This document shows positions 24,370-38,791 of a stretch of 41,800 bases of DNA, one piece after another. The position numbers were made by a program, and so were the translations under genes. The stretch's first letter is position 1. The number at the start of each line of letters is the position of its first letter. Source of the stretch: Candidatus Saccharimonadota bacterium (lineage in GTDB: Bacteria > Patescibacteriota > Saccharimonadia > Saccharimonadales > Saccharimonadaceae); NCBI GenBank assembly GCA_013316435.1, contig WSMR01000003.1:1-41800 (forward strand), given 5' to 3'. The notes under the pieces were generated by a model. That model did not search any database. It was given only the letters and a program-made list of their open reading frames with translations, and was not told the origin of the DNA.

Positions 24370-24570
24370 TCACCCCTCCCGTACCACACAGCGAACGGCA
24401 AAACCGTGCCCGCGGTAACTGTTATTCTGAGGGTAGACATTCGTCGGGAACGTATACAAGAAGTGGCCGTTTGTAGCAGAACCAGCAGTAGTAGACCACA
24501 AGTAGCCAGTTGTGACGCGTGCGACGATGAAGCCACCCGAGCGACCGTAGTGGCCCATACGGAGAAAGTT
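24370..24570 (-). pseudogene. Cassette A: startless C-terminal fragment of a FISUMP/C-type-lectin-like surface protein
   Basis: Minus strand NFLRMGHYGRSGGFIVARVTTGYLWSTTAGSATNGHFLYTFPTNVYPQNNSYRGHGFAVRCVVREG*. No domain body, start or SD. Homologous to 37916-38116. Confidence 0.75.
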
Positions 24571-24596
24571 GAGAGGATCTGAGATATAATAGCTTT

Positions 24597-37639: not shown

Positions 37640-37659
37640 ATTGGGATACTCCTCTCCTC

Positions 37660-37914
37660 TCATCTCCCGACGCAGCGAAGAGCGAAACCGTAGCCACGAT
37701 AGTCGTTACTCTGAGGGTTGACAAGGGAGCTATTGAAGTACAGGTAGTACGCACGCAACCCGGAGTATGCTGTACGAGACCAGTAGCGGCCGTACGACCC
37801 CTCATGGTTCAGCGAGCCTGCATTGTAGTAGTAGCCAGTGTAGACAAAATCAAGAGGAGACTGTCTGAGCTTAGTAGAACCAGTAGAGTTATTTGTAATG
37901 TTGTAGGTGGTGAA
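37660..37914 (-). pseudogene. Cassette C: startless C-terminal FISUMP/C-type-lectin-like fragment (~85 aa)
   Basis: Minus strand FTTYNITNNSTGSTKLRQSPLDFVYTGYYYNAGSLNHEGSYGRYWSRTAYSGLRAYYLYFNSSLVNPQSNDYRGYGFALRCVGR*. Confidence 0.75.
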
Positions 37915-37915
37915 A

Positions 37916-38116
37916 AACTTTCTCCGTACGGGCTACTACGACCGCTCGAGTGGCTTCATCAACGGACGCATCGCAAATGGCCACTGGTGGTCTACCACTG
38001 CTGGTTCTGCTACTTACGGTCACTACTTGGCTACGGATCCGACGGTTGTCTACCCTCAGAATAACTATTACCGCGGAAACGGTTTTGCCGTTCGCTGTGT
38101 GGTACGGGAGGGGTGA
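37916..38116 (+). pseudogene. Cassette B: startless C-terminal FISUMP/C-type-lectin-like fragment
   Basis: NFLRTGYYDRSSGFINGRIANGHWWSTTAGSATYGHYLATDPTVVYPQNNYYRGNGFAVRCVVREG*; same length (201 nt) as cassette A. Confidence 0.75.
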
Positions 38117-38557: not shown

Positions 38558-38596
38558 CCTCCTAGCGGTCTAAAGTTCCTGCGAATATACTGCCCC

Positions 38597-38791
38597 TCAC
38601 CTCCCGACGCAGCGAAGAGCAAAACCATTCCCGCGGTAGTCTTTATACTAGAGGTAGATACGTGTTGGGTTCGTGTCCAGGATATAGCTGAGGCCATCAG
38701 AACCAGCGGCAAACAACCACCAGGACCCATCCGTGACGCGTCTAGTTATTTGACTGCCTGAGCGAGAGTAAAAGCCTGTACGGAGAAAGTT
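38597..38791 (-). pseudogene. Cassette D: startless C-terminal FISUMP-like fragment with internal TAG
   Basis: Minus strand NFLRTGFYSRSGSQITRRVTDGSWWLFAAGSDGLSYILDTNPTRIYL*YKDYRGNGFALRCVGR*. Confidence 0.7.

Follow-up and report, generated by a model that had tools for sequence, protein, structure and literature searches.

The window, a stretch of 41,800 nucleotides, represents one contig of a draft genome (G000; contigs are given C-numbers) that comprises 692,579 bases in 63 contigs, is 81.6% complete, and contains 40 matches to a cassette in the window designated A (Table 1). In the frame of cassette A, a stop lies 10 codons before CTC-CGT, and this frame lacks an ATG, GTG or TTG start and ends in ...GFAVRCVVREG*; the corresponding frame of a second cassette, B, comprises 69 aa. 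The CCTCTC edge of A corresponds to the P-L codons that precede the variable repeat (VR) in a long gene on contig C1, and is seen again at several other cassettes. A cassette of a second type lies head to head with B, and the window also includes a decayed hybrid of the two types. An Rfam scan of the window yielded no match.

Table 1. Features of the window and components of the associated diversity-generating retroelement (DGR) elsewhere in the genome (coordinates without a contig name refer to the window)
Feature	Position	Strand	Description
Cassette A	24370..24570	minus	free-standing type-1 VR cassette
CCTCTC edge	24571..24576	minus	directly 5' of cassette A
Type-2 cassette	37640..37905	minus	DFVYTGYYYNAGSLNHEGSYGRYWSRTA..GFALRCVGR*; FISUMP gene 3' fragment; VR core 37663-37851
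Cassette B	37916..38116	plus	free-standing type-1 VR cassette
Decayed hybrid cassette	38594..38791	minus	type-1 5' part (NFLRTG) and type-2 3' part (GFALRCVGR); in-frame stop inside VR
Template repeat (TR)	G000:C60:8336-8523		reads NYNRSNGNINERVTNGNWWSTTAGSATNGHNLNTNPTNVNPQNNNYRGNGFAVRCVV; AAY at every hypervariable codon
DGR-like reverse transcriptase (RT)	G000:C60:36043-37332		430-aa ORF; RVT_1 match at C60:36235-36933

The first-pass annotation had described A and B as copies of 201 nt each with identical ends and a variable, mainly nonsynonymous interior, and comparison of the two reproduced this description in every detail: they align without gaps, they agree in the first 4 and in the last 12 codons, the differing codons span 5 to 55 of 67, and the 29 differences fall into 22 codons, 18 of which are nonsynonymous, with 12, 11 and 6 differences at codon positions 1, 2 and 3, respectively. 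Because A and B align with a BLAST E-value of 1e-62 and the genome contains 40 matches, this similarity is far beyond chance. The adenine bias that had been proposed is evident as well, given that 21 of the 29 differences are located at adenines of the genome's own TR, and this TR supplies the AAY template codons that had been postulated from the A/B codon pairs.

The surroundings of the TR are apparently non-coding and include a TATAAT-like box some 220 bases before it, and VR and TR part sharply after GTGTGGT. Genome-wide alignment to the TR revealed substitutions relative to it at 545 of 1234 adenines (44.2%) versus 96 of 3099 other bases (3.1%) across 25 distinct copies, and in the same copies, 57% of the adenines inside the 17 AAY codons differ from the TR. 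The differences are therefore neither evenly spread nor devoid of a TR-like counterpart, but adenine-specific and centered on AAY codons, and the assignment of A and B as VRs of a DGR is firm. The additional suggestion that the repeats have since drifted holds only mildly, with non-adenine divergence at 3%, and part of this divergence, at TR positions 89 and 161, resembles an older version of the TR. At these positions, the TR has C and G, respectively; among the 23 full-length VRs, T occurs at position 89 in 16, and all four bases occur at position 161. This pattern looks as if an older or second TR had read GGT...GGA AAC, and the cassettes may thus record TR history. Two points are missing from the earlier reading, namely, that A and B lie outside genes, and that several cassettes have blocks in common.

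The TR and the RT reside on the same contig, C60, at a distance of 27.5 kb. The RVT_1 match in the RT ORF (PF00078, 50 bits) is the only one in G000; the best PDB sequence match of the RT is 8ub7 (E 4e-26), which we take to be the RT of the BPP-1 DGR, and the protein contains the motifs RYVDDF (YVDD) and IVIGNLTSQ (GNLTSQ). The RT is preceded by a 452-aa ORF that matched no family. Also upstream of the RT, C60 ends in a partial VR that fits as the absent 3' end of the FISUMP-domain gene on C1. We infer that C1 and C60 are joined, in which case the gene order would be target gene, accessory ORF and RT. By its RT, the Patescibacteria group bacterium UBA5124 is a relative, and an RT search of viral contigs retrieved no relative. 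Among the relatives with an RT, the TR is located directly beside the RT in most cases, usually on the opposite strand, and most have a compact locus consisting of a target gene, RT and TR. In G022, the TR and RT are on different contigs (C2 and C8), and in G024, no TR was found next to the RT. For the genomes with unlinked TR and RT, the counts are 50 matches in G000, 54 in G022 and 85 in G024, which exceed those of most linked genomes (Mann-Whitney p 0.013, with only 3 unlinked genomes); nevertheless, G013, where the TR is linked to the RT, contains 67.

Cassettes A and B belong to a set of about 40 dispersed, mostly intergenic and mostly start-less cassettes that match the 3' end of a gene for a FISUMP-domain protein. 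In G000, ORFs of at least 150 aa account for 76% of the DNA, yet 40 of the 44 cassettes fall outside them, and among 30 cassette frames, 27 have no upstream ATG, and 24 have no ATG, GTG or TTG. In contrast to A and B, the C1 gene and the target genes of the relatives contain the VR within the gene: the C1 match forms the 3' portion of a long gene with a FISUMP domain (TIGR02145, 44 bits) and a 585-aa open frame, where the CCTCTC-AAC cassette edge is read in frame as P-L-N. The ends of the cassettes are sharp and their flanks unrelated; most copies in G000 align gap-free over 201 nt, the 5' edge in this genome falls where homology to the TR begins, and TACTTTC opens two of the copies, as it does the TR. 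A MITE-like terminal inverted repeat (CCTCTC/GAGAGG) was considered and set aside because CCTCTC belongs to the reading frame of the target gene and the 5' edges of the G000 copies differ in position by several bases. The type-2 cassettes appear to be NNY-variable, and no TR for them was found in the 82%-complete assembly of G000; two of them (C37:32-223 and C37:12716-12910) have identical protein sequences except for the last residues. A subset of type-1 cassettes (L025-L029; contigs C24, C15, C37, C17 and C5) departs from the common sequence after GGTTTTGCCGTTC, and most of these have another tail in common (LVTSLSLSGTAASSKRSA*).

We compared 40 genomes of the genus, 39 of which contained matches; all are apparently draft assemblies, and the evidence throughout consists of E-values, open frames and draft contigs. 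Mainly free cassettes were found in G030 (109 matches), G013 (67), G022 (54) and G011 (28); in G030, neither an RT nor a TR was detected. When the free cassettes were compared with the TR of their own genome, adenine sites differed far more often than other bases in G011 (50% versus 2.6%), G013 (42% versus 9%) and G022 (41% versus 12%). The start point of the cassettes is the same almost to the base among 24 copies in G022 and among 31 in G030, and the G022 cassettes possess a leader of about 30 nt. Because the cassettes of G013, G022 and G030 mostly end before the stop codon, and often lack a start as well, they cannot encode a complete protein. In G030, the first two positions of the hypervariable codons vary widely and the third is mostly C or T, and in-frame stops were found in 0 of 62 copies. 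In G003, G026 and G033, almost all matches are long-frame FISUMP genes. These three genomes, with no RT detected, each have 15-20 mostly long-frame FISUMP matches with hypervariable-looking, VR-like C-terminal ends. Relatives in which a DGR is present, such as G027, contain no free cassettes apart from TRs. In G022, over 20 cassettes alternate in orientation within a 10-kb island (C7:16863-26712; L203 1364-11213). Many of them lie tail to tail across short spacers, an arrangement that turns their VR ends into inverted repeats, and similar pairs are also seen in G030. The target domain of the relatives was modeled with low confidence (mean pLDDT 37), and the model supports no fold claim.

Copies at different places in G000 have identical runs of 17, 17, 14, 13 and 10 of the 17 hypervariable codons, compared with a maximum run of 7 in 300 trials of a shuffled-column null. 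In particular, B and the copy at G000:C32:3121-3321 have 14 consecutive hypervariable codons in common and differ at the second and the last hypervariable codon. Copies have blocks in common beyond chance in G000, G013, G022 and G030, and no blocks in common were found among the free cassettes of G011. Because cassette pairs have such long hypervariable blocks in common, sequence evidently passes between VRs; TR-to-VR retrohoming alone cannot yield these pairs, whereas duplication or recombination between VRs can.

The VR of a 786-aa protein of G030, probably expressed, judging by its intact long frame, shares 99.4% identity across 156 nt with a free cassette of contig C12; the next best match is 65.5%. 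The G030 copy lies at a contig end, and identity alone carries no direction of copying. Upstream of this VR, about 60 nt align with the leaders of several further cassettes (91-98%). In G000, where the FISUMP gene is cut at a contig end, no transfer from a cassette to the expressed gene was seen.

On balance, we favor the reading in which the DGR writes variants and expressed surface proteins draw on the free cassettes as a reserve that recombines; the reserve function is what we infer from the above. Under this scheme, the RT would copy TR RNA with adenine-specific errors, and the resulting cDNA would recombine into TR-like sequences. These would be the free cassettes as well as the expressed FISUMP gene, whose 5' part is on C1 and whose 3' end probably lies on C60. 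Blocks would then pass between cassettes and into the expressed gene through homologous recombination at the conserved ends, such that the cassettes would constitute a heritable store of binding-surface variants, in the manner of the silent pilS or MgPar copies. More tentatively, and with slightly less than even confidence, we propose a two-layer system, in which the DGR, with its TR acting in trans, writes random variants, and start-less VR cassettes throughout the genome store and shuffle these variants and return them to expressed surface proteins, a reserve that could outlive the DGR, as may be the case in G030. Against the reserve reading stand the decayed cassette in the window, the free cassettes of G011 without block sharing, and relatives such as G027 that have a DGR without free cassettes; moreover, this reading gives no account of how cassettes arrive at new sites.

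An alternative that we regard as unlikely, although deserving of consideration, is that a multi-target DGR has left fossils, so that the cassettes would be 3' remnants of genes that once were targets, unused but still hit by DGR cDNA through their match to the TR. Nanoarchaeota are known to carry DGR fragments that lack an RT, for which the authors proposed either fossils or remote diversification (PMC4372165), and the decay of one cassette in the window is in line with this possibility. However, fossils should show ragged ends and indels, whereas the 5' ends in G022 and G030 are sharp and most copies in G000 are free of gaps; the blocks common to different copies also argue against this origin, as do the uninterrupted frames of the G030 copies, an argument weakened by the fact that AAY codons cannot become stops at adenine sites. 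Less probable still is that the DGR behaves as a retrotransposon, with RT-made cDNA inserted at new intergenic sites and the cassettes being insertion products without an archive role. Insertion of cDNA at many positions has been proposed (Yan et al. 2019, PMC6642488), and the sharp ends, unrelated flanks and 5' edges at the start of TR homology in G000, including the two TACTTTC copies, are in line with this account, but TR cDNA alone cannot be the source of the cassettes because most of them carry sequence outside the TR homology (in G000, ACGGGAGGGGTGA at the 3' end; in G022, the leader). Furthermore, inspection by eye revealed no target-site duplication at cassette A, and the genome with the most cassettes, G030, is one with no RT detected. 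We consider it highly improbable that strain mixture or repeat collapse during assembly or binning generated false copies and false mosaics: the assemblies are drafts, so false mosaics inside repeats are possible, and several contigs of G000 end within VRs, but the copies lie inside contigs with different flanks, the same picture emerges from assemblies of 98% (G022) and 97% (G030) completeness, and assembly error cannot produce an adenine-specific spectrum.

Silent-cassette gene conversion, as in Neisseria (pilE/pilS), Mycoplasma genitalium (MgPar) and Anaplasma (msp2), involves copies that cover only the variable part of a surface gene and have no start. The cassettes described here are likewise scattered over a small genome, have conserved ends and blocks in common, and are partial copies without expression signals, as judged on start and stop codons; unlike those systems, new variation here comes from a DGR, and putative transfer involving an expressed copy is limited to one case in one relative, the near-identical pair in G030. 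Unlike the same-direction arrays of integron cassettes, the copies occur in both orientations, dispersed or tail to tail, and the alternating orientation in G022 and G030 is suggestive of a shufflon. With the BPP-1-type DGR of the Bordetella phage (mtd/TR/RT), the system has in common the RT type, adenine-specific TR-to-VR substitution at AAY codons, and location of the VR at the C-terminus of the target, but differs in having one TR for dozens of VRs, most VRs outside genes, a TR remote from the RT, and blocks common to VRs. The DGRs of CPR/Patescibacteria (clade 2, Roux et al. 2021, PMC8144416) occur in the same host group and probably represent the same RT clade; by that survey's own statement, VRs away from the RT were beyond its detection, and in the sections consulted, free cassettes are not described. 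In Thiohalocapsa PB-PSB1, an RT and/or TR located elsewhere in the genome apparently acts in trans to diversify the targets, but the 15 targets are reported as genes (PMC10907252), whereas here there are dozens of start-less cassettes. DGRs with multiple VRs and remote targets are known (PMC3521204, PMC6642488, PMC10907252), and the DiGReF study includes one VR outside any identifiable coding region. In a limited literature search, drawing partly on excerpts, we found no description of dozens of free-standing VR cassettes or of a DGR joined to a silent archive.

DGRs are usually viewed as one-way writers, from the TR to the gene, with each new variant overwriting the previous one; if the proposed reading is correct, a recombining stock of VRs would endow a DGR with memory and shuffling, and two textbook mechanisms, the DGR and silent-cassette gene conversion, would be joined in very small, probably host-dependent bacteria. 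In these genomes, a search that stays close to the RT fails to find most of the VRs.

A type-1 cassette at L263 5001-5198 (IMGVR_UViG_2600255148_000013) differs from the TR of G000 at 8 of 137 non-adenine bases and 22 of 51 adenines, and sits in a stretch of lower GC; the same contig encodes a tape-measure-like protein, OLD/UvrD (Gabija-like) genes, a Fic protein and two large serine recombinases, and the cassette may reflect horizontal transfer or contamination. A second type-1-like cassette (L264 50-247, IMGVR_UViG_3300035428_000264) lies at one end of a contig with a viral classification.
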